Origin: Sunxiuqinia elliptica
GTDB taxonomy: Bacteria > Bacteroidota > Bacteroidia > Bacteroidales > Prolixibacteraceae
Direction of reading: 5' to 3'
Length of the DNA stretch: 64,000 nt
Assembly (NCBI RefSeq): GCF_900113005.1
Contig: NZ_FONW01000014.1
Coordinates: 1 to 64,000 of the forward strand
Shown here one piece after another: positions 50,624-61,525 of the stretch. Position numbers and translations under genes: made by a program. Under the pieces are notes generated by a model, which saw only the letters and a program-made list of their open reading frames with translations, was not told the DNA's origin and did no database searches. Positions within the stretch are counted from its first letter, which is position 1, and every line of letters starts with the position of its first letter.

Positions 50624-51130
50624 TTATGCCGATTTCGACTCAGCAGGGCATCCTTCCTGATATTCAGCAATAATTTTGCTGACTTGTTGTGGGGATACCC
50701 GTCCATATACTTTCTCTCCAACGGTAACCACAGGAGCTAATCCGCAGGCTCCAACACAACGCAGGCTGCTTAACGAAAATTTCCCATCAGCTGAGGTTTC
50801 GCCAACTTCAATTTTGAGTTGGCGCTTAAACTCTGAAAGTACCTGTTCAGCTCCCCGGACATAGCATGCGGTTCCCATACAAATTGAAATTGGGAACTCG
50901 CCTTGAGGCAGCATGGTGAAAAATGAGTAAAAGGTGACGACACCATATACCTTTGCTACCGACATGTTGAGCTCGCGTGCGATGACTTCCTGAACTTCTG
51001 CAGGCAAATAGCCTAGCCGACCTTGAACTTGATGAAGGACATTGATTAATTCTCCCTCTTCATGATTGAATTTGGCACAGACCTCTTTGATCTGTGTAAT
51101 CGTTTTTTCTGCAAGTTTTATTTTAGGCAT
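50624..51130 (-). CDS. hydC: Bifurcating [FeFe] hydrogenase subunit HydC (NuoE-like)
   Basis: A 168-residue thioredoxin-fold [2Fe-2S] subunit related to NuoE. The N-terminal helices (LAEKTITQIKEVCAKF) precede the cluster site with Cys pairs in ICMGTACYVRGA and LRCVGACGLAP. In HydABC it passes electrons between the NADH site of HydB and HydA. The ATG at 51130 was chosen; a TTG start overlapping the hydA stop would add 30 unrelated residues. It is the last gene of the operon and is followed by two terminators. Confidence 0.93.
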   Translation of the reverse strand: MPKIKLAEKTITQIKEVCAKFNHEEGELINVLHQVQGRLGYLPAEVQEVIARELNMSVAKVYGVVTFYSFFTMLPQGEFPISICMGTACYVRGAEQVLSEFKRQLKIEVGETSADGKFSLSSLRCVGACGLAPVVTVGEKVYGRVSPQQVSKIIAEYQEGCPAESKSA

Positions 51131-51216
51131 TGTTCTTATTTTACGGTGAATGTCAAAATTGCTGTCAATAGTTGTTATTGATTTGCCTTGTTCTGTACTT
51201 TCTTGATTAATGACAA

Positions 51217-52968
51217 TCAACTCCGATCAAAATATTCGGTGTGCAATAGATGATGTGCTTTGTCGCTTAGTGGTTCTCCCAAAAATTCTTCATATAATTT
51301 TTTGATGTAAGGGTTCTCATGCGACTTCCGGATCGTTTTACTTTGATCTTCTGCATAAAGCGCTTTTTGACGTTTTTTCAGGATCTCAACATTGCCATGA
51401 TGGTAAGGTTGTCCTCCTCCTCCAATACATCCGCCGGGGCAAGACATGATTTCAATAGCATGAAACTCGCTCTTTCCATTTTTGATCTCTTCCAAGAGTT
51501 TCCGGGCATTACCGAGGCCGTGAGCTATTCCAATGTTTATTGGGAGGCCATCGAAATCGATGGTGGCTTTGCGCAAACCTTCCATCCCTCGCAGCTCTTC
51601 AAAGTCAAGCCGATCGAGCGATTTCCCGGTTTGTACCTCGTATGCGGTACGCACAGCAGCTTCAATTACACCGCCTGTGGTGCCGAAGATAACTCCAGCT
51701 CCTGTTGATTCGCCCAAAGGCTGATCGAATTCCTCATCTGGTAAGGATTTGAAATCAATGTTGGCCAGGTTGATAAGCTGAGCCAACTCCCGAGTCGTTA
51801 ACGCATAATCAACATCAGGATTACCATCTACGGAGAATTCTTCGCGACTGCTTTCATATTTTTTTGCTACACAAGGCATGATTGAGACAACCACCAAATT
51901 TTCCCGTTTTACTTGCATCTTATCAGCGAAGTAGGTTTTGGCGATAGAGCCAAACATTTGCTGTGGTGAGCGGGCTGTTGATGGTATATCTTTCAGTTCC
52001 GGAAAGTGATGTTCAAAGAACTTGACCCAAGCAGGACAGCAGGATGTTAAAATTGGAAGCTTTACGTTTTGATCGCCTGCCAGGTATTTATTTAGCCGTT
52101 CGAGTAATTCTGTTCCTTCTTCCATGATGGTCAAATCGGCTGCGAAATCGGTATCAAAAACATAGTTGAAGCCTAGGCGACGTAGGGCTGCTGCCATTTT
52201 TCCGGTAACCAGTGTGCCAGCGGGGAGCCCAAACTCTTCACCCAAAGCAGCACGAACAGCAGGAGCTGTTTGAACAACAACTGTTTTTTCTGGATCTGAA
52301 AGAGCCCGGATGACCGCTCCGGTTTGGTCCACTTCGGTAAGTGCCCCCGTTGGACAGACAGCAACGCATTGTCCACAGTAGGTACACGAAGAGTGGTCCA
52401 GGTTCATTTCAAAAGCGGGAGAAACAACAGCTTCAAAACCACGGTTAATGGTGGATAGCACGCCTACTGTTTGTACCTCGTTACACATGGTTTCGCAGCG
52501 GCGGCACAGGATGCATTTATCCATCTCCCGAATAATTGCAGGGCTGGTATCTTCTCGGTAGTGCGATTGCTCACCTTGGTAATGAATCTCCCGGATTCCT
52601 AAATGATGAGCCAAATCCTGTAATTCACAATTGCCGGATTTCGCACAAACGAGGCAGTCGGAAGGGTGGTCGGAGAGGATTAGCTCCACAATGGTGCGTC
52701 GTGCATTAATTGCCCGGATTGAATGTGAACTGATTTCCATTCCTTCGGTAGCTTCGGTGCAGCAGGCTGGGGCCAGGTTGCGACGTCCTTTGACTTCAAC
52801 AACACAAACTCGGCAGCCTCCGGGTTTGTTTTCAATGTTCATATCATGTAAATGCATATGACACAAGGTTGGGATGTCGACTCCAATACTTGCTGCAGCT
52901 TCGAGAATTGTTGTTCCTTTTTTGACAACAATTGACTTATTATCGATAGTTAGATTGATCATTTCCAT
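51217..52968 (-). CDS. hydA: Bifurcating [FeFe] hydrogenase catalytic subunit HydA
   Basis: A 583-residue catalytic subunit forming or oxidising H2. Domains in order: N-terminal [2Fe-2S] (Cys36, Cys52, Cys55, Cys69/70), HxxxCxxCxxxxxC cluster (His101, Cys105, Cys108, Cys114), two [4Fe-4S] sites (Cys152-162 and Cys195-205), then the H-cluster domain. All three H-cluster motifs are complete: TSCCPAW with Cys310/Cys311, IMPCVAKK with Cys366, and EIMSCPGGCIGGGG with Cys510 and Cys514. A C-terminal small-subunit-like tail follows. The architecture is that of HydA in the trimeric enzyme coupling NADH and reduced ferredoxin to H2. HydE/F/G maturases are not in the window. Confidence 0.96.
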   Translation of the reverse strand: MEMINLTIDNKSIVVKKGTTILEAAASIGVDIPTLCHMHLHDMNIENKPGGCRVCVVEVKGRRNLAPACCTEATEGMEISSHSIRAINARRTIVELILSDHPSDCLVCAKSGNCELQDLAHHLGIREIHYQGEQSHYREDTSPAIIREMDKCILCRRCETMCNEVQTVGVLSTINRGFEAVVSPAFEMNLDHSSCTYCGQCVAVCPTGALTEVDQTGAVIRALSDPEKTVVVQTAPAVRAALGEEFGLPAGTLVTGKMAAALRRLGFNYVFDTDFAADLTIMEEGTELLERLNKYLAGDQNVKLPILTSCCPAWVKFFEHHFPELKDIPSTARSPQQMFGSIAKTYFADKMQVKRENLVVVSIMPCVAKKYESSREEFSVDGNPDVDYALTTRELAQLINLANIDFKSLPDEEFDQPLGESTGAGVIFGTTGGVIEAAVRTAYEVQTGKSLDRLDFEELRGMEGLRKATIDFDGLPINIGIAHGLGNARKLLEEIKNGKSEFHAIEIMSCPGGCIGGGGQPYHHGNVEILKKRQKALYAEDQSKTIRKSHENPYIKKLYEEFLGEPLSDKAHHLLHTEYFDRS

Positions 52969-52982
52969 AACACGTTCCGTTT

Positions 52983-54776
52983 TTAAGCGATTTTAATAGC
53001 ATCAAACTTGCACTTTTCATAGCAGGCTCCACACTTGATACATAGTGTTTGATCAATGTAGTGTGGGCTGCGTTTTTCTCCGGAAATGGCTCCAACAGGA
53101 CAGTTTCGGAAGCATAGGGTACAACCAGTGCATTTTTCATCATCGATGATGTATTGCAACAAGGCTTTGCATTGCCCCGCAGGACAAGTGCTGTCGTTGA
53201 TATGTGCCTCGTATTCGTGCATGAAATTATCCAAGGTTGAAAGGACCGGGTTGGGAGAGGTTTGCCCCAATCCACAGAGTGATGAATCTTTAATAACATG
53301 ACTCAGCATTCGGAGCTTAGTCAGATCTTCGGGAGTTCCTTTCCCCTCAGTAATTTTTTCCAGAATCTCGTGCAGACGTTTGTTGCCGATCCGGCAAGGT
53401 GTGCATTTCCCGCAGGATTCATCAAGAGTAAATTCGAGGTAAAACTTAGCAATGGAAACCATGCAGTCGTCCTCATCCATCACAATCATTCCTCCTGAGC
53501 CCATCATTGATCCGGCAGCAAGCAGGTTGTCGTAATCAATAGGGGTGTCTAAGAAAGCCTTGGTTAAGCAACCTCCGGAAGGGCCTCCGGTTTGCACAGA
53601 CTTAAATTCTTTCCCATTTTTGATTCCACCACCGATATCGTAAATCACTTCTCGTAAAGTGGTTCCCATAGGAACTTCAATTAAACCTACATTATTGATC
53701 TTACCAGCTAAGGCAAATACTTTTGTGCCTTTGGATTTCTCGGTCCCAATACTGCTAAACCATTCTGCTCCTTTGGTGATAATTGGAGGCACATTGGCAA
53801 ACGTCTCTACATTATTGACATTGGTTGGTTTGCCGAGGTATCCCTCTTGCGATGGAAATGGGGGCTTGAAGGTTGGCTCACCACGTTTGCCTTCCATGGA
53901 ATGAATGAGGGCTGTTTCTTCTCCGCAAACAAAAGCTCCTGCGCCATACCTGATTTCAATATCAAAATCGAAATCTGTCCCCAGTATATTTTGTCCAAGC
54001 AGACCATACTGACGTGCTTGCCTGAGGGCTGTTTTTAAACGTTGAATAGCCAGTGGGTACTCTGCACGGATGTAGACCAACCCTTTGTTGGCACCGATGC
54101 AATAGCCGCAGATAGCCATGGCTTCAATTACGGTATGTGGATCTCCTTCCAGGATTGAGCGATCCATAAATGCGCCGGGGTCGCCTTCATCAGCATTGCA
54201 GACCACATACTTTTGTTCATGCTCAACTTTTCGGGTAATGTCCCATTTCAAGCCTGTCGGGAAGCCACCGCCTCCGCGGCCTCGTAGGCCCGAGTCGATA
54301 ATGGTTTGGATGGCTTGTTCCGGACTAAGTTCTTCCAAACATTTGCCAAGGGCGGCATAGCCATTGTTTCCAATGTACTCTTCAATATTTTCAGGATTGA
54401 TAAAACCACAATTTCGTAAAGCAACGCGCACTTGCTTTTTGTAAAAATCCATGTTTTTACTTTCGGTGATCTGTCCCAGGGTGGTTGGGTCGGTATAAAG
54501 CAAACGTTCTACCTTACGTCCTTTGATGAGGTGTTCTTCCACTATTTCACGGCTGTCTTCCGGGGTGACACCAACATAAAAGGTGTTGTCGGGTTGGATT
54601 TTTACAATGGGTCCTTGCTCACAGAACCCGAAACAACCGGTGTGAATTACCTGAACGTCTTGATCCAGCCCTCGTTCTTCGAGCTGGTTTTGAAAGTTCT
54701 TTTTGATTAGTTCGCTTTGAGATGCTTTGCAGCCCGTACCGCCACAAACCAATACGTGCATTTTATAGTCAGCCAT
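52983..54776 (-). CDS. hydB: Bifurcating [FeFe] hydrogenase subunit HydB (NuoF-like)
   Basis: A 597-residue flavin subunit where NADH binds and electrons bifurcate. An N-terminal thioredoxin-like [2Fe-2S] domain has Cys11, Cys16, Cys48 and Cys52. The NuoF core has the FMN/NADH loop SGLRGRGGGGFPTGLKW, NADEGDPGAFMDRS, and the [4Fe-4S] ligands in ESCGKCTPCR and SSLCGLGQ. A C-terminal ferredoxin-like part adds two [4Fe-4S] sites (CTGCTLCFRNCPVGAI and CIKCGACYEKCKFDAI). This matches Thermotoga-type HydB. It lies 14 bases before hydA. Confidence 0.96.
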   Translation of the reverse strand: MADYKMHVLVCGGTGCKASQSELIKKNFQNQLEERGLDQDVQVIHTGCFGFCEQGPIVKIQPDNTFYVGVTPEDSREIVEEHLIKGRKVERLLYTDPTTLGQITESKNMDFYKKQVRVALRNCGFINPENIEEYIGNNGYAALGKCLEELSPEQAIQTIIDSGLRGRGGGGFPTGLKWDITRKVEHEQKYVVCNADEGDPGAFMDRSILEGDPHTVIEAMAICGYCIGANKGLVYIRAEYPLAIQRLKTALRQARQYGLLGQNILGTDFDFDIEIRYGAGAFVCGEETALIHSMEGKRGEPTFKPPFPSQEGYLGKPTNVNNVETFANVPPIITKGAEWFSSIGTEKSKGTKVFALAGKINNVGLIEVPMGTTLREVIYDIGGGIKNGKEFKSVQTGGPSGGCLTKAFLDTPIDYDNLLAAGSMMGSGGMIVMDEDDCMVSIAKFYLEFTLDESCGKCTPCRIGNKRLHEILEKITEGKGTPEDLTKLRMLSHVIKDSSLCGLGQTSPNPVLSTLDNFMHEYEAHINDSTCPAGQCKALLQYIIDDEKCTGCTLCFRNCPVGAISGEKRSPHYIDQTLCIKCGACYEKCKFDAIKIA

Positions 54777-54788
54777 TCTCTTGAGGTT

Positions 54789-55184
54789 TTAGTCGTCAAT
54801 GGTTTTATAATTAACTGGGATGATCCCATCCACCAGTTCATTCATCTTAATGTGTCTGTCGATAATTTCCTGGGCTTTTTGTTTGTCAACATAGCCATAG
54901 ATAACCGGTTGTTTGCCAGGCATGGTCAACTCAATGGTGGGCTCGGCATAGCAAAAACCCATACATCCGGTTTGTGTGACCAGAGCATCGATTCCTTGAT
55001 GATCTAACTCTTCGATCATGAAATTCATCGTTTCTTTAGCGCCGGAGGCAATGCCGCAGGTGGCCATGGAAACTTTGATTTGAATTAGATTTTCAGGATG
55101 GTCTCCCTTTTCACGTAATTTAATTTTGGATTGTACCTCCTCTTTTAGTTTTTTGAGGTCGGCCAGAGATCTGACTTTAGTCAT
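54789..55184 (-). CDS. Small [2Fe-2S] thioredoxin-like ferredoxin
   Basis: A 131-residue protein of the thioredoxin-like [2Fe-2S] ferredoxin family seen next to bifurcating hydrogenases. Cysteines lie in VSMATCGIASGA and TQTGCMGFCYAEP; the second pair matches the HydB N-terminal domain (HTGCFGFC). Only three cysteines are obvious, so the fourth cluster ligand is unclear. It lies 12 bases before hydB and may be an accessory electron carrier or subunit. A 93-base gap separates it from the upstream regulatory part of the operon and may hold an internal promoter. Confidence 0.86.
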   Translation of the reverse strand: MTKVRSLADLKKLKEEVQSKIKLREKGDHPENLIQIKVSMATCGIASGAKETMNFMIEELDHQGIDALVTQTGCMGFCYAEPTIELTMPGKQPVIYGYVDKQKAQEIIDRHIKMNELVDGIIPVNYKTIDD

Positions 55185-55277: not shown

Positions 55278-55826
55278 TTATTCGCTTATTTGAATTTGTT
55301 CTAAATTCCCTTGAATCATTTCCATCAGAAATTTTCGAACTTCGGGGGTAGTCAAGGGGATTCCATCCAGCTCTTGCTTTATTTCCCGGGTATCGAACAG
55401 GAATTCTCCTTTTGGACTTTGGTGAGTGTAGATTAGCTCCGATTGCTTTTCGTTGGAAGCCAAAATGAGCAAGGTTCCTGCGATGTCGCCTAAAAATGGA
55501 CGATCGATGTGATGAAAGCCGAAGGTCGCTTGCAGGTGAGTGCCTTTGTTGGTTTCTGAATGTAGCATAAAGCTTCCACCAGTTAGCTCTGCATTGTATT
55601 TTAGCAATGGAAGTCCCAGACCAACTTTACGAGTTGTTTGTGTGGTGTAGAAAGGATTGGTCGCTTTTTCCAGTTGCTCAGAAGTCATGCCATGGCCATC
55701 GTCATCAACCTTGAAAATGAGTTGATCTTCGTTTGGAGCTTCCTTGATTAGAATAGAAATGAGCTGGGCGTTGGCCCGAATCGAATTTTGAGCGATATCG
55801 AGTAGGTGAAGTGCTAGTTCGTTCAT
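55278..55826 (-). CDS. GHKL ATPase-domain protein (HATPase2)
   Basis: A 182-residue stand-alone histidine-kinase-type ATPase domain. N box: LHLLDIAQNSIRANA; G1 box: DDDGHGMTSEQL; G2 box: KVGLGLPLLKYNAELTGG. There is no dimerisation/phosphoacceptor domain, so it cannot be a full histidine kinase. The C-terminal 60 residues (HIDRPFLGDIAGTLLIL...) are a conserved-looking extension I cannot assign. The start overlaps the PHP stop by 4 bases. This pair is known in operons with hydrogenase and DRTGG genes, and its biochemical role is unknown. Confidence 0.85.
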   Translation of the reverse strand: MNELALHLLDIAQNSIRANAQLISILIKEAPNEDQLIFKVDDDGHGMTSEQLEKATNPFYTTQTTRKVGLGLPLLKYNAELTGGSFMLHSETNKGTHLQATFGFHHIDRPFLGDIAGTLLILASNEKQSELIYTHQSPKGEFLFDTREIKQELDGIPLTTPEVRKFLMEMIQGNLEQIQISE

Positions 55827-56566
55827 GGTTCAATTTTTACAAAACGTCCGTTTTTTTGGTTCAGAGCCCACCGAATTTCATTAAATGTCGGCTCAAATAG
55901 GTAAAAAGAGGTTGCTGAAGAACCAACATCCTCTAGGTAATGTGCGTCTGAGGCGGTAATCAGACTAATGTCTGAGTGAATATCATATTGGTTTCGAATG
56001 CTTGTTTCATCGGCATATTTTGATAGTTGCATGCCGTCAACTTTAAGGTCGGTTGCCAGGTAGCCAAACTGGCTGTATAAACTATTGATGGGCCGGTCGA
56101 TATGAGCGGGTATAAATAGTCCGTTGATTTGATGTGTGAACTTTTCGATGGTCTCCAAGTCAATCATTAATGGATTTCCGAGGTAGTTGGGGTAGTACTC
56201 CGTAATTTGATTGTTTCTATCGACCACCACTTGGTGTCCGTGGTATTCCGGACGATTGGGAATTGTGGGCAGGTAGTGGTCCAGAAAGTGTTGAAACTTA
56301 TTTCGTGTATAGTCGTCCTCAAACAGGCAAATGGCGTGTACTTCTTCTTGACTGTTAATCTCGCAGCCATTGACCACTAAAAGTCCGGTTCCTTCTGCAT
56401 GTTTTTTGACAATTTCGCATTGCTTCGTTGAGTTGTGGTCGGTGATGGCAAGAATGTCGATTCCCCGTTTCAGTGCTTGCTTCACAATCTTATCAGGGCT
56501 CATCTCCAAGTCAGCACATGGCGATAAGACAGTATGAACGTGAAGATCAGCCCTGAATTTTTTCAT
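55823..56566 (-). CDS. PHP-domain phosphoesterase-like protein
   Basis: A 247-residue protein of the PHP family (polymerase and histidinol phosphatase fold). Metal-site residues: RADLHVHTVLSPCA at the N-terminus, AITDHNS, the Glu in NGCEINSQEE, His in IPAHIDRP, and the late ITASDAHYL. PHP enzymes are usually trinuclear phosphoesterases. In this operon it could act on a phosphorylated or nucleotide signal, but no substrate is known. Its stop overlaps the HATPase2 start by 4 bases; 101 bases separate it from DRTGG2. Confidence 0.88.
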   Translation of the reverse strand: MKKFRADLHVHTVLSPCADLEMSPDKIVKQALKRGIDILAITDHNSTKQCEIVKKHAEGTGLLVVNGCEINSQEEVHAICLFEDDYTRNKFQHFLDHYLPTIPNRPEYHGHQVVVDRNNQITEYYPNYLGNPLMIDLETIEKFTHQINGLFIPAHIDRPINSLYSQFGYLATDLKVDGMQLSKYADETSIRNQYDIHSDISLITASDAHYLEDVGSSATSFYLFEPTFNEIRWALNQKNGRFVKIEP

Positions 56567-56667: not shown

Positions 56668-57018
56668 TTAAGCCAAACAGCCTTCTTTTTTTAGAAGTTC
56701 GAATAACTTTCCACTGATCTCAAAGGTTGAATCAGTTGTTGAGAGAATGGGGATTTGCTCATCGTTGCTGTGCCGGATTGTACTTTCGTGAGGACGTAAG
56801 CCTTTCACGAGAATAACGGCAGCTAAATCTTTTAACGAGGCAATGGCCATCACATTTTGATGTACTTGCAGGGTGATCCACATTTGGCTTTCCCGGGCAT
56901 TTCCCATAACATCACTCAGCAGATCGGAGACATAGGCTCCTGTAACTTCGCGATCGAGACCTTTCTCGCCGGAAATGACTTCCAAATTTAGTTGTTCAAT
57001 TAAATCAGAAACCTTCAT
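56668..57018 (-). CDS. DRTGG-domain protein (second copy)
   Basis: A 116-residue stand-alone DRTGG domain, the fold that precedes the kinase in HPr kinase and the CBS pair in some pyrophosphatases. Its motif region reads EVTGAYVSDLLSDVMGNA, and the C-terminal half PILSTTDSTFEISGKLFELL is typical. Such domains may bind nucleotides or act as dimerisation units; no catalytic residues are present. The ATG at 57018 overlaps the H-cluster gene by 14 bases, so the two are translationally coupled. Confidence 0.82.
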   Translation of the reverse strand: MKVSDLIEQLNLEVISGEKGLDREVTGAYVSDLLSDVMGNARESQMWITLQVHQNVMAIASLKDLAAVILVKGLRPHESTIRHSNDEQIPILSTTDSTFEISGKLFELLKKEGCLA

Positions 57019-58381
57019 TTCTTTTTCCTCTTTTATTACAGTCAGCCTGAAAACGTTTCTCACCCCATTTCTTTTCGACATTCCGGAATGCTTTGTCGGT
57101 GCTTATTCGGCCTTCATCTTCCCACATTTGTTGCAAGAAGATGCAGTCGGACATTTTAGCTCTGCCATTGACCATGTCTTCGGCTAAAGCCTGGCAGTTT
57201 GGAGCACCACAAGCACCGCAGTCTATTCCTGGTAAAAAGCAGATGATGCGTTGAGCCTTATTCATTTTTTCCAAGGCTCGCACCCGGTCTTTATCCAAGC
57301 TGAATGCAGGGCGAGGAACAATTTTATCAGCGACTAATTTTTGTTTAATTTCTTTTGAGTTTTTTACGGGATCAGATTGCTGCAGTTTCCAGGCTGGCGG
57401 GTAGCGTTTGGCACGCGACTCCAACCGTTCAACAGTCAGAAACCGGTTTCCAGTCATCATAATTCCACCGGCACAACTCTGATCACAAGCACGTAGCTCT
57501 AAAAAATCAATGTCCGGAACCTCTTCATTTTCCAGTCGTTCCAAAAAACGAATGACATTGTGAATCCCATCAATGGCCATGCTTCGCTCTCCAAAGTGGA
57601 CGGATTCACCACGAGTCAAACTCCACAAGATCCCATCTCGGGTTAGGTTTTGACGTTGGCTGCTGGTATCTGGCACTTCTTTGTCATCAATCGCTTGCAT
57701 GACCCTATTGTATAAGGTATTCATGTTGATGATACCGTCAACAATTGATTCTTTTTCACCAACAGGACTTTTCACCGATGTTATTTTTGCATTGCATGGA
57801 GTGACGTAAAATAAGCCAATTTCATCTTCGTTGGCTCCCTGTTTCTTTAGTTCATTGATTGCAAAATGAGCTCCCAGATCATGGGGTGCTTTTCGCTGAA
57901 TCATGTTGTCGATCAACGACGGATATTTAATTTGAATGAGCCGGACAATGGCCGGGCAAAAAGTTGAAATATGTGGTTTTATATTTTCTGTTGTCCGGCA
58001 ATATTGTCGAATCGAACTTTTTAACACGCCGATGGGCTGTTCAACTTCAAAAACATGAGTGAAACCTATTTTTAAAAGAGCCGCGTAAATCTGGTCTTCG
58101 GTATATTTCTCCGGAAACTGGCCAATCATTACAGCGGGAAACAGGACCACCCGGTATTTAAAGGCTTTGGCATTCTGTAAATCATCTTGTTCTACATAAA
58201 TGGCTTTTTCGGGGCAAGCCCGCATGCAATGTCCGCAGTCGACACACCGCGCACTCCAGATCTCAGCCAGTCCGTTAATGACACGGATCGCTTCGGTAGG
58301 ACAAGCTTTCATGCAGTGGGTGCAGCCAATGCATTTATCCTCGTCGATGGTGAGTGCATGATATGTTCTTGCTGGTGCCAT
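57005..58381 (-). CDS. Sensor-type [FeFe] hydrogenase-like H-cluster protein
   Basis: A 458-residue protein: two N-terminal [4Fe-4S] sites (Cys17, 20, 23, 27 and Cys46, 49, 52, 56), an H-cluster domain (about 75-330) and a C-terminal PF04060-like [4Fe-4S] domain (Cys388, 391, 396, 413). H-cluster ligands are kept: Cys142 in STFCPAI, Cys196 in TPCNAK, Cys299 and Cys303 in ELRACDQSCAGG. Phe141 replaces the proton-relay Cys of catalytic TSCCP, Met of L2 is Thr194 and Met of L3 is Arg297. This is the pattern of slow or sensory [FeFe] hydrogenases, so it probably senses H2 or redox state. It overlaps HATPase1 by 1 base and DRTGG2 by 14. Confidence 0.87.
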   Translation of the reverse strand: MAPARTYHALTIDEDKCIGCTHCMKACPTEAIRVINGLAEIWSARCVDCGHCMRACPEKAIYVEQDDLQNAKAFKYRVVLFPAVMIGQFPEKYTEDQIYAALLKIGFTHVFEVEQPIGVLKSSIRQYCRTTENIKPHISTFCPAIVRLIQIKYPSLIDNMIQRKAPHDLGAHFAINELKKQGANEDEIGLFYVTPCNAKITSVKSPVGEKESIVDGIINMNTLYNRVMQAIDDKEVPDTSSQRQNLTRDGILWSLTRGESVHFGERSMAIDGIHNVIRFLERLENEEVPDIDFLELRACDQSCAGGIMMTGNRFLTVERLESRAKRYPPAWKLQQSDPVKNSKEIKQKLVADKIVPRPAFSLDKDRVRALEKMNKAQRIICFLPGIDCGACGAPNCQALAEDMVNGRAKMSDCIFLQQMWEDEGRISTDKAFRNVEKKWGEKRFQADCNKRGKRNEGF

Positions 58382-58791
58382 TAAAAATAGTTAACCATTT
58401 CTACTGTTGTTCCTTCATCTACCTTTGATTGGATCTGAAGTTTATCGGTATTTTTTTTGATATTGGGTAAGCCCATTCCAGCTCCAAAACCCATTTCGCG
58501 TACTTTTTTGCTGGCTGTTGAATACCCCTCTTGCATCGCCTGTTCAATATCGGGGATTCCCGGTCCTTTATCAATGATTTTGGTCGTGATTTTATCTGAC
58601 TCAATATGAACCAATATCTGTCCTTCATAAGCGTGGGCTACCACGTTTACTTCAGCTTCATAGAGGGCAATAACAATGTTTTTGATGCAATGAGCTTCAA
58701 CTCCCAGCTGCTTGAGCATCTTTTTAACCTGACTCGAAGCGTAGCCGGCTTTGGTGAAATCACCTCCTGCTATTTCAAATTCCAGATTCAT
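58381..58791 (-). CDS. SpoIIAB/RsbW-like ATPase (HATPase1)
   Basis: A 136-residue serine-kinase-type GHKL domain similar to the anti-sigma kinases SpoIIAB and RsbW. The N box is ALYEAEVNVVAHAYEG with the catalytic Glu and the Mg-binding Asn; G1 is IIDKGPGIPD; G2 is GFGAGMGLPNIKKN. It is followed with a 1-base stop-start overlap by the H-cluster gene, so the two are made together and probably interact. A partner-switching role is inferred from its fold and from the divergently encoded PP2C phosphatase; no STAS antagonist is encoded nearby. Confidence 0.88.
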   Translation of the reverse strand: MNLEFEIAGGDFTKAGYASSQVKKMLKQLGVEAHCIKNIVIALYEAEVNVVAHAYEGQILVHIESDKITTKIIDKGPGIPDIEQAMQEGYSTASKKVREMGFGAGMGLPNIKKNTDKLQIQSKVDEGTTVEMVNYF

Positions 58792-58794
58792 AAC

Positions 58795-59139
58795 TTAGTA
58801 CACGGGGTTTAATCCGGCTTGGTACAGTAGTCCACTGGCCTTAAACAAGGTGTAAGGCGATTCGAGCAGACACATGTTATTTTCGTTGGCTAAGGCCAGC
58901 ATCTCCGCTGTGACTTTTTTGTTGCGAACAAACACGATGTACCGAATGTCTGCCATTTCAGAAGTCCGAATGGTTTGCAGGTTACAAAGACCTGTTATTA
59001 AAAGTAGGTTATCGGTGTCAAGCGTTAACACATCGCTCATTAAATCGGAGCTGAATCCCCGTTCAATTTTTGCCGATGCATGTTCTTCTCCGCAGATAAT
59101 GGTAGCGGCTAGAAGCTCACAAATTTTACTGACCTGCAT
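58795..59139 (-). CDS. DRTGG-domain protein (first copy)
   Basis: A 114-residue stand-alone DRTGG domain and first gene of the hydrogenase operon. The conserved part reads ERGFSSDLMSDVLTLDTD, followed by ADIRYIVFVRNKKVTAEMLALA. It is similar in build but not a close copy of the second DRTGG protein. The ATG at 59139 was chosen because the longer frame adds 16 residues without family resemblance and would run into the promoter region. It lies 3 bases before HATPase1. Confidence 0.82.
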   Translation of the reverse strand: MQVSKICELLAATIICGEEHASAKIERGFSSDLMSDVLTLDTDNLLLITGLCNLQTIRTSEMADIRYIVFVRNKKVTAEMLALANENNMCLLESPYTLFKASGLLYQAGLNPVY

Positions 59140-59211: not shown

Positions 59212-59380
59212 TGAAAATCAAAATTTAGACTGAGTTGAAATAAGCCTATTCGCGGCATAATGTTTAAATTAGTTGGTGGAATCGAGGGATATTTATGATA
59301 ATTTAGAGAACTTGAAGCTGGGTGTACCCTTTTGGATGGTTGCCCGGGAAGGCAAGCAAAATATTCTTTCTGACTGGAAG

Positions 59381-59414: not shown

Positions 59415-60344
59415 ATGATTTACGATGACAAATCTCTTCACTCAGACATGATTGAAAATCCTAAGTTGCATCAGAAAATTATTGATGCTTTGCCAATTCC
59501 TATTTTTTATCGCGATGTAAAAGGAATATATAAAGCCACCAATAAGGCTCATGAAAATTTTATTGGTCTGAAAAAGGAAGAGATCATCGGGAAAACGGTG
59601 TTTGATGTACAACCCTTGGAAATTGCTGAAATTTATGCCCGGCGCGATCAGGAGTTATTCGATAGTCCGGGAGACCAGAGTTATGAAACTAAGTTTCGCC
59701 TGTCTGATGGTTCCTTGCATGATGTGATTTTCAACAAGGCAGTTATTCGCGATGATGAAGGAACAATCATTGGAATTGTAGGTTCAATCTTTGATATTAC
59801 CGATCGGAAAAAGGCAGAGCGGAAGCTGGAAAAAGCCAAAGAAGCTTCGGTTATTGCTTCGGCTATGGTGCACAAAATTCGAGCTGGAATTGTCATTGTG
59901 GATAGTGATTTTAAAGTCATTGATTCGAATGAGGGGTTTGCCAAGCTCTTTGGACAGGAGATGGAAGAGTTGTATGAAACAATTCCCGGATTGCAAGGTG
60001 CTGACTTAAAGGAGCTGATTCCTGAGGTTGTTTTTAAAATGTTTGCTTCGTTGATGGCTTCCGGTGAAAATATGTTGGAACGTGATCTGAAGATTCAAAA
60101 CAGACTGTTGCATATTTCTGTGATTACCATATACAAAAATCGGGTGGTTGGCGCTTTAATTCGAGATATGTCTGCTCCTTTACTTGTTCGGGAAGAGATT
60201 ATTAGCCGGGCCCAACGGGTGAATAAGCAAAACCTGGAGACCGTACAGCAGATTGCATTCTTGCTGGGTGAAAATGCAGCACAAACAGAGGAATTATTGT
60301 ATTCAATTATTCAATCCTATAAATACGAGGAGGACAATAACTGA
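59415..60344 (+). CDS. Tandem PAS-domain protein of the hydrogenase cluster
   Basis: A 309-residue soluble protein with two PAS domains, at about residues 15-130 (ALPIPIFYRDVKGIYKATNKA, DITDRKKAERKLE) and 145-260 (IRAGIVIVDSDFKVIDSNEGF). It has no kinase, cyclase or DNA-binding domain. The last 45 residues (VNKQNLETVQQIAFLLGENA...) look like a short helical tail seen in similar hydrogenase-linked PAS proteins. Its stop overlaps the PP2C start by 1 base (TGATG). The ligand or cofactor is unknown; a redox or H2-linked signal is inferred from the neighbours. Confidence 0.88.
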   Translation: MIYDDKSLHSDMIENPKLHQKIIDALPIPIFYRDVKGIYKATNKAHENFIGLKKEEIIGKTVFDVQPLEIAEIYARRDQELFDSPGDQSYETKFRLSDGSLHDVIFNKAVIRDDEGTIIGIVGSIFDITDRKKAERKLEKAKEASVIASAMVHKIRAGIVIVDSDFKVIDSNEGFAKLFGQEMEELYETIPGLQGADLKELIPEVVFKMFASLMASGENMLERDLKIQNRLLHISVITIYKNRVVGALIRDMSAPLLVREEIISRAQRVNKQNLETVQQIAFLLGENAAQTEELLYSIIQSYKYEEDNN

Positions 60345-61525
60345 TGGCTGATTACCATTTTGATGTCGATATTCAACAGAAAATGCCCTTGGGGCAGATT
60401 GTTTGTGGCGATGTATTTTATACCCGTCGAATTAAGGAAGAAGGTCGTGTAATTCTGGTTTTATCAGATGGAATTGGGCATGGCGTGAAAGCGAACGTGT
60501 TGGCAACGCTCACAGCCTCCATGGCTTTGAATTACTCATCGTTGCATACCAAACCTGATATTGCGGCTCACATTTTTATGCGTGCCTTGCCCCGCAGCCG
60601 CGATGGAAAGGAGAGTTATGCCACTTTTACCATTATTGAAATTGAAGTTGATGGGATGGTTCGTATTGTGAATTACGATAATCCACCCACACTGATTTTT
60701 CGGAATGGAGACTTTTTCGCACCACGCGAAATTGAAGTCAATATCCGGGGAGCTGAAAATGTTGGGAAGATATTGCGGATTCGGGAATTTAAGCCAATCA
60801 AAGGCGATCGGATTATTTTTATGACCGATGGTGTTGTCCAGAGCGGGTTGGGAGGGAAGCGTTATCCGATGGGCTGGGGGCTGGATCAGGTGCGTGAGTT
60901 TGTGCAGAATCAAATTGCCCGGGAAAATGAGATTTCAGCCACACGCTTGTCGAAGAAAATTTTGAACCAGGCAGCTATGAATGATTTGTTTGAATTGAAA
61001 GACGACACCAGCTGTGGAATTATTCATTTCAGGCAGCCCCGGGAGTTTATGCTCATTACCGGACCTCCTTTCTATAAAATCAAGGATTTTGAGTTTGTAA
61101 AACGCATTACTGAGTTTCCGGGGAAGAAGATTATCTGTGGAGGAACAACGGCTGAAATTGTTGCGAGGGAGTTGGATTTGGAAGTACAGATTCAGCATCG
61201 TTATTACGAGGCAGCCATTCCGCCGGTTGCTGATATGGAGGGATTTGAAATGGTAACCGAAGGGATTCTGACTATGGGGAAGGTAGAGGAAATCCTGGAA
61301 AGCTACACCAGCGATACCCGTTTGGGCAATAGTCCGCCAGAAGAGGTGGTTAAATTGCTAATGGAACATGATATCATTCATATCATCGTGGGAACCCGAA
61401 TAAACTGGGCTCATCAGGATCCGGATCAATCGATGGACTTGGAGATCCGAAAGGTGGTGGTAAAACGCATTGTGCGTTTGCTGGAAGAACGTTTCTTGAA
61501 AAATGTTGTGGTTGAACTTGTGTAG
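60344..61525 (+). CDS. SpoIIE-type PP2C phosphatase with extra C-terminal domain
   Basis: A 393-residue protein phosphatase. The PP2C domain spans about 1-220 with metal-binding Asp residues in IVCGDVFYT, VLSDGIGHG, FMTDGVVQSG and DDTSCGII. Residues about 225-393 form a second domain that I do not recognise from other SpoIIE proteins: it starts MLITGPPFYKIKD and carries IICGGTTAEIVAREL. It is translationally coupled to the PAS protein, a typical sensor-phosphatase pair. Its substrate is likely a phosphoprotein of the opposite operon or a STAS protein encoded elsewhere. Confidence 0.9.
   Translation: MADYHFDVDIQQKMPLGQIVCGDVFYTRRIKEEGRVILVLSDGIGHGVKANVLATLTASMALNYSSLHTKPDIAAHIFMRALPRSRDGKESYATFTIIEIEVDGMVRIVNYDNPPTLIFRNGDFFAPREIEVNIRGAENVGKILRIREFKPIKGDRIIFMTDGVVQSGLGGKRYPMGWGLDQVREFVQNQIARENEISATRLSKKILNQAAMNDLFELKDDTSCGIIHFRQPREFMLITGPPFYKIKDFEFVKRITEFPGKKIICGGTTAEIVARELDLEVQIQHRYYEAAIPPVADMEGFEMVTEGILTMGKVEEILESYTSDTRLGNSPPEEVVKLLMEHDIIHIIVGTRINWAHQDPDQSMDLEIRKVVVKRIVRLLEERFLKNVVVELV

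Follow-up and report, generated by a model that had tools for sequence, protein, structure and literature searches.

Does a protein that carries the cysteines of an H-cluster and lacks the proton-relay cysteine of catalytic [FeFe]-hydrogenases report on hydrogen and, if so, to which partner? The question arises at a locus of Sunxiuqinia elliptica (contig NZ_FONW01000014.1, positions 1 to 64,000; this whole stretch of 64,000 nucleotides is called the window below), where a sequence-only reading had likened such a protein, here termed HydS, to sensory hydrogenases and had proposed that it signals through a partner. PMC8163306 and PMC13104023, in their available portions, leave open how group D hydrogenases would relay a signal. 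The gene and the features of its product are located as follows.

57005..58381, minus strand: hydS, assigned to the group D (M2e) [FeFe]-hydrogenases, 458 aa (ORF translation, Pfam, alignment and tree)
58214..58333, minus strand: pair of four-Cys motifs at the N-terminus, Cys17-27 and Cys46-56 (Pfam and motif reading)
57464..58123, minus strand: H-domain, Fe_hyd_lg_C, residues 87-306 (Pfam)
57959..57961, minus strand: Phe141 codon, where group A has its relay cysteine (numbering starts at the ATG at 58381)
57143..57220, minus strand: C-terminal Cx2Cx4Cx16C cluster motif, residues 388-413, PF04060 (Pfam and motif reading)

Positions 57005-58381 translate on the minus strand as a single open frame of 458 aa. 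Pfam detects N-terminal Fer4 motifs, an Fe_hyd_lg_C domain at residues 87-306 (E 9.5e-24) and an FeS domain (PF04060) at residues 383-415 (E 3.2e-13), and finds neither a PAS nor a kinase domain in HydS, in line with the earlier description. The H-cluster cysteines named there, Cys142, 196, 299 and 303, can be read in the translation and are, together with the four C-terminal cysteines, conserved without exception in a 16-row alignment in which the remaining rows share 46-76% identity with HydS; the residue pattern is therefore not due to chance. The relay cysteine is indeed replaced by Phe141, located directly before Cys142 in the context ISTFCPA, and the exchange of the motif L2 and L3 methionines is confirmed by Thr194 (VTPC) and Arg297 (LRAC) at the positions of Met353 and Met497 of CpI. 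The corresponding sites in the window's own HydA read TSCCP, IMPC and IMSC.

This make-up agrees with the published traits of group D (M2e), which are given in the available part of PMC8163306 as two N-terminal clusters, a C-terminal Cx2Cx4Cx16C motif, absence of a PAS domain and of C299, Ser or Thr at M353 and poor conservation at M497. HydS displays the same layout, with two N-terminal 4Fe-4S motifs, the H-domain, the C-terminal Cx2Cx4Cx16C motif and no PAS domain, lacks the relay cysteine (CpI C299) and has Thr194 at the M353 position. The relay cysteine and both methionines of group A are missing, as is the C-terminally fused PAS domain of group C. NCBIfam scores for HydS reach 87 bits with the [FeFe] subfamily B1 model (cut-off 450) and 80 with the group A model (cut-off 405.95). 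In a maximum-likelihood tree of 54 rows covering residues 8-320, drawn from sequences other than TamHydS and the HydDB references, the D (24 rows) and A (9) clades each received support of 100/100, B (5) 99/96 and C (16) 77/74, the groups being labelled by us according to motifs, domain make-up, NCBIfam (window HydA) and the R. albus group C protein published in PMC6776011, as far as available. HydS is found deep inside D and outside the A and C clades. Two of the rows, from genus g12 (L129, L130) and described below, lie on a branch of length 4.0 and have a deviant composition. We are nearly certain that HydS belongs to group D, and the view of an H-domain protein outside catalytic group A stands. 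The C-terminal four-Cys domain, previously called unusual, is already on record for both group C and group D (PMC8163306, available part), and this point was dropped as a family norm. The finding is real and its outline correct, with HydS being a further member of a published group; what goes beyond the finding are its partner genes, a gene pair resembling a group C output end that lacks the hydrogenase head, and the g12 proteins.

Loss of the relay cysteine had been read as a sensory sign. This holds in as much as HydS lies in group D, termed 'putatively' sensory in the available parts of the literature, in which no member of the group is demonstrated to signal H2. Loss of the residue alone, however, would not imply a non-catalytic protein, because the proton path proposed for group D, E252-E289-S249(S/T)-D265 (PMC10407848, in the part available), is kept completely in HydS as E259-E295-T256-D271. 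Moreover, TamHydS, whose relay residue is Ala, shows slow H2 turnover, for which another proton path has been proposed (PMC10407848, same part).

No row of the 16-row alignment departs from E259, E295 and D271, and a wider residue census was compiled from the best 80 of 508 relatives, 31 further loci, two plasmid-collection records and two g12 loci. These 115 rows comprise 112 distinct sequences, or 102 after collapsing at 95% identity, and are biased to Bacteroidales. All 110 distinct sequences outside g12 keep E259, E295 and D271 together, and the diiron-pocket Lys along with the proton-path residues is likewise kept in 110/110. Residue 141 is Phe in 97 of the 112 distinct sequences, Tyr in 12, and Ala, Arg and Thr in one each, yielding Phe or Tyr in 109/112; residue 297 is Arg in 102, Lys in 7, Gln in 2 and Asp in one. 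Phe at the relay position, initially considered exceptional, was accordingly set aside as a family norm. Since the single Ala belongs to a Bacillota record (L117, Subdoligranulum) and TamHydS also has Ala here (PMC11803613, available part), Phe is, judged from the aligned residues, a mark of a Bacteroidota-centred subclade and not of the window protein alone. Charged residues described around the C-terminal cluster in group D (PMC13104023, available part) map by cysteine offset to D387, E401, D402 and D412 of HydS; of the 115 census rows, 114 keep D387 and D402, 86 keep E401 and 57 keep D412. At the position of Glu259, L129 and L130 show E or D in one alignment and a gap or K in another, and these two readings are not relied upon.

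Relatives are nearly all from Bacteroidota among the best 80 of 508, with one exception in Desulfoluna (L062); within the same 80, Draconibacterium, Maribellus and Prolixibacter, genera probably of the window's own family, contain relatives at 56-61% identity. A class-wide sample searched at E 1e-30 revealed relatives in 3 of 295 genomes, all in the window's order and one being the window's own genome, and a sample of the order searched at E 1e-20 gave matches in 130 of 295, the weaker ones including group C-sized proteins. Viral contigs gave 14 matches by pattern, none of which encodes a relative. Of 20 plasmid-collection records with a match, five were examined, and those from Subdoligranulum (L117) and Parabacteroides (L118) proved to be group D-like. 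Two distant relatives (L147 and L148, in genomes G469 and G396; 31% identity) have Phe at the relay position and no equivalent of Glu252 of the group D path, and they adjoin a longer relative, 282-283 aa, of the ATPase introduced next.

In the window, hydS, together with a DRTGG-like gene and a SpoIIAB-like ATPase gene, leads a cluster of bifurcating-type hydrogenase genes.

58795..59139, minus strand: small DRTGG-like protein, encoded upstream of the ATPase gene (ORF given as reaching 59187, start presumed at the inner ATG)
58381..58791, minus strand: SpoIIAB-like HATPase_c_2 protein, 136 aa, overlapping the hydS start by one base (Pfam, NCBIfam)
56668..57018, minus strand: DRTGG-domain protein downstream of hydS (PF07085, E 5.3e-7; ORF listed to 57081, inner start inferred)
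55823..56566, minus strand: PHP-domain protein (Pfam)
55278..55826, minus strand: second HATPase_c protein, no match to a kinase dimerisation domain (Pfam)
50624..55184, minus strand: bifurcating-type hydrogenase genes (HydA by NCBIfam, others by sequence features and position), comprising the next four
54789-55184, minus strand: 2Fe-2S protein (sequence features and position)
52983-54776, minus strand: HydB-like protein (sequence features and position)
51217-52968, minus strand: HydA, group A6 (NCBIfam A6 model, above cut-off)
50624-51220, minus strand: HydC-like protein (sequence features and position)

Relatives of both the DRTGG-like protein and the ATPase are encoded beside hydS in 82 of 82 loci at E 1e-4, this set consisting of the best 80 of 508 relatives plus L117 and L118. 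When L129 and L130 are included (84 loci), both genes lie upstream of hydS and co-oriented with it in 83, L062 being the exception. The gap between the ATPase gene and hydS measures at most 60 nt in 68 of these 83 loci, the largest being 758 nt (L117), and in 79 of 83 the ATPase is more similar to that of the window than HydS is, with median identities of 62% and 46%, respectively. PHP, second ATPase and HydABC genes are frequent, not constant companions. No HydABC gene was found within the flanks examined at the Parabacteroides loci L059, L064 and L118, all of which have the trio of DRTGG-like protein, ATPase and HydS; genome G037 also has the trio, without a match to the downstream DRTGG, PHP or second ATPase proteins within 6 kb. 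Signalling via a partner, as initially suggested, is likely because an ATPase gene lies beside hydS in every neighbourhood examined (82/82). The trio, common to Bacteroidota loci and one Bacillota record, names a concrete candidate partner.

By sequence, the solved structures nearest to this ATPase are SpoIIAB and RsbW (E about 1e-6), and it scores 71.3 bits (E 7.3e-20) against the SpoIIAB model TIGR01925, below the cut-off of 135; a SpoIIAB-type role is meant solely in the sense that the protein may work like SpoIIAB. Among the 13 window genes with which neighbourhoods were probed, none beside hydS was recognised as encoding a sigma factor. Three STAS matches occur in the window's genome; the only small one, of 130 aa, is encoded on a different contig. 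The upstream DRTGG-like protein has no Pfam match at 1e-3; its name comes from a weak NCBIfam match, to a pyrophosphatase model, and from its relatives, which resemble the DRTGG protein encoded downstream. In the literature searched, a single paper mentions both DRTGG and hydrogenase, once each, and none combines them with a PHP domain.

A second gene pair diverges from this operon.

59220..59244, no strand: conserved block in the divergent PAS/DRTGG intergenic region, kept among six same-genus sequences
59415..60344, plus strand: divergent PAS protein, 309 aa, residues ~132-309 resembling the C-terminal end of several group C sensory hydrogenases (Pfam and sequence comparison)
60344..61525, plus strand: phosphatase of SpoIIE type, 393 aa, with relatives among the phosphatases linked to group C (Pfam and sequence comparison)

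The block at 59220-59244 is possibly a promoter or operator. Pfam locates a PAS_9 domain at residues 29-130 of the PAS protein; residues ~132-309 match the C-terminal ends of seven of 14 group C proteins at 39-50% identity, and the SpoIIE neighbour matches the phosphatases beside six of those group C proteins at 42-50% over 366-390 aa. One further group C protein matches the PAS protein weakly (E 0.007), and the remaining six, R. albus and Monoglobus included, do not match. The SpoIIE neighbour is 27-28% identical to the R. albus and Monoglobus phosphatases, and the one other SpoIIE protein of the window's genome gave no match at E 0.01 in the same comparison. In the window's pair, the group C hydrogenase head appears to be replaced by a PAS domain. 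Intact group C genes accompanied by SpoIIE lie upstream of the DRTGG-like gene in L047 and L049, and in L108 such a pair follows the operon on the opposite strand. A PAS match adjoins hydS in 22 of 28 same-family loci, window included, within flanks of 1.5 kb (weak in L014, 27%), and SpoIIE is a neighbour at some of the loci only. The pocket Lys is missing from five group C sensory hydrogenases of Bacteroidota (L047, 5646-7496; L049, 5745-7595; L108, 11115-13019; L125; L131), and three of their genes adjoin one of group D. In HydDB, group C3 carries the label 'phosphatase-linked (putative)' according to the available part of PMC5037454.

We infer that the window's HydS binds an H-cluster and reacts slowly with H2. 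The window's genome encodes HydE, HydF and HydG. G037 likewise has all three maturases, and HydS, with an intact pocket, is the single Fe_hyd_lg_C match of that genome. Searches of G007, G009, G030 and G039, which encode HydS beside other Fe_hyd_lg_C proteins, gave no HydE or HydG match and a HydF match restricted to the GTPase domain, with HydS pockets intact where read. G167, G527 and G609, searched for HydE and HydG, gave no match. HydE is present in G026, with HydF and HydG unmatched, and HydG in G024, with HydF unmatched. Assembly or search gaps are therefore conceivable, and for the first seven genomes loss or alternative maturation is possible as well. Maturases alone are no proof of a client, since G040 contains HydF and HydG without any Fe_hyd_lg_C match.

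Genus g12 presents a different pocket. HydS occurs there in four genomes (G017, G036, G681, G682; loci L129, L130, L137-L140) among 140 family genomes searched and retains all cluster cysteines, as far as the chosen starts left them in view. All four have Asn at position 143 (Pro in the window), His at 195 (Pro), Glu at 199 (Lys) and Ser at 271 (Asp), and Glu295 is replaced by His or Asn. Lys199 presumably anchors the diiron site. One internal stop was flagged in three of the four matches, with open frames reaching residue 453-455 of the 461-aa query, and these stops are taken as the ends of slightly shorter proteins. The operon is kept in the two g12 genomes examined of the four. Judging by these residues, the g12 proteins probably hold only 4Fe-4S clusters and constitute a natural experiment on the need for H2 binding.

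We propose that HydS, with its H-cluster bound and reacting slowly with H2, would control the SpoIIAB-like ATPase through its redox or conformational state, either directly or via the DRTGG-like protein. The ATPase would act as a switch of the protein-kinase or anti-sigma type, and hydrogenase or fermentation genes would thereby follow H2 or redox state; in the window's family, the adjoining PAS-SpoIIE phosphatase may oppose the kinase arm. For this chain as a whole, from H2 or redox input through HydS to a SpoIIAB-like switch controlling hydrogenase or fermentation genes, we see the balance as even. In its favour we count the group D pocket and cluster residues, the position in the D clade, the constant DRTGG-like and ATPase partners, the SpoIIAB/RsbW relatives, the maturases of G037 and of the window's genome, and the ATPase neighbour of TamHydS; against it stand the four genomes without HydE and HydG matches, G040, the g12 pocket, the lack of a recognised sigma gene, the ATPase score below cut-off and the partial spread of SpoIIE. 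More tentatively, and as something possible rather than probable, the locus may form a two-armed partner switch for H2 or redox, in which HydS gates the SpoIIAB-like kinase, SpoIIE is the group C output end with its head replaced by PAS, and g12 has lost the diiron site and kept the circuit. One H-cluster protein would then serve a circuit that elsewhere has two.

The g12 proteins, with their cluster cysteines and, in two genomes, the whole operon retained despite four pocket changes in 4/4, would also suit a general redox sensor of ferredoxin or cell potential, whose H-domain is mainly an iron-sulfur platform and for which H2 is not the physiological signal. We regard this as rather unlikely, as a pure 4Fe-4S platform would have no need for the pocket Lys and proton path kept in 110/110 distinct sequences outside g12. 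That HydS is a slow catalytic hydrogenase, passing electrons between H2 and ferredoxin-like partners with no role in signalling, is compatible with the presence of all group D proton-path residues and with the catalytic activity reported for TamHydS (PMC8163306, PMC10407848, parts available). We nevertheless consider it unlikely: TamHydS rates are low, 200-fold below those of Cr-HydA1 in vitro (PMC6984386, available part), and the constant companions of HydS are genes for a switch-type ATPase and a DRTGG-like protein. The frequent location of hydS within the HydABC gene cluster might point to a helper in assembly or maturation of the adjoining hydrogenase, yet this seems very improbable given the Parabacteroides trios without a HydABC gene detected in the flanks examined, and G037 without another Fe_hyd_lg_C protein found.

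Returning to the proposed H2 or redox switch, its parts can be compared with three known systems. The SpoIIAB/RsbW serine kinases and anti-sigma factors have the HATPase_c_2 domain in common with the window's ATPase, which differs by scoring below the model cut-off and by having no sigma-factor or STAS gene recognised beside it. Group C hydrogenases (M2f; HydDB C3), such as Ruminococcus albus HydS, resemble the window's system in their C-terminal four-Cys cluster and nearby SpoIIE gene (PMC5037454, PMC6776011, available parts) and, in most group C tree rows, in the absent relay cysteine; however, they carry their own PAS domain and fall outside the D clade, whereas in the window PAS and SpoIIE are separate genes and HydS is without PAS. 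The closest counterpart is TamHydS of Thermoanaerobacter mathranii (group D, M2e), compared here through the residues given in the available parts of the papers rather than its full sequence, which has in common with HydS the domain order, the Cx2Cx4Cx16C motif and the lack of PAS domain and relay cysteine (PMC8163306, PMC10407848, PMC11803613, PMC13104023), as well as a hydroxyl residue at M353, the E-E-(S/T)-D path, an adjoining ATPase gene, described as histidine kinase-like (PMC8163306), and a location upstream of a bifurcating hydrogenase. In TamHydS, H2 induces a change of secondary structure and the C-terminal cluster is not reduced by H2 (PMC13104023, available part). The window's HydS departs from TamHydS at the relay position (Phe against Ala), at M353 (Thr against Ser) and at M497 (Arg against Leu), and its host belongs to the Bacteroidota.
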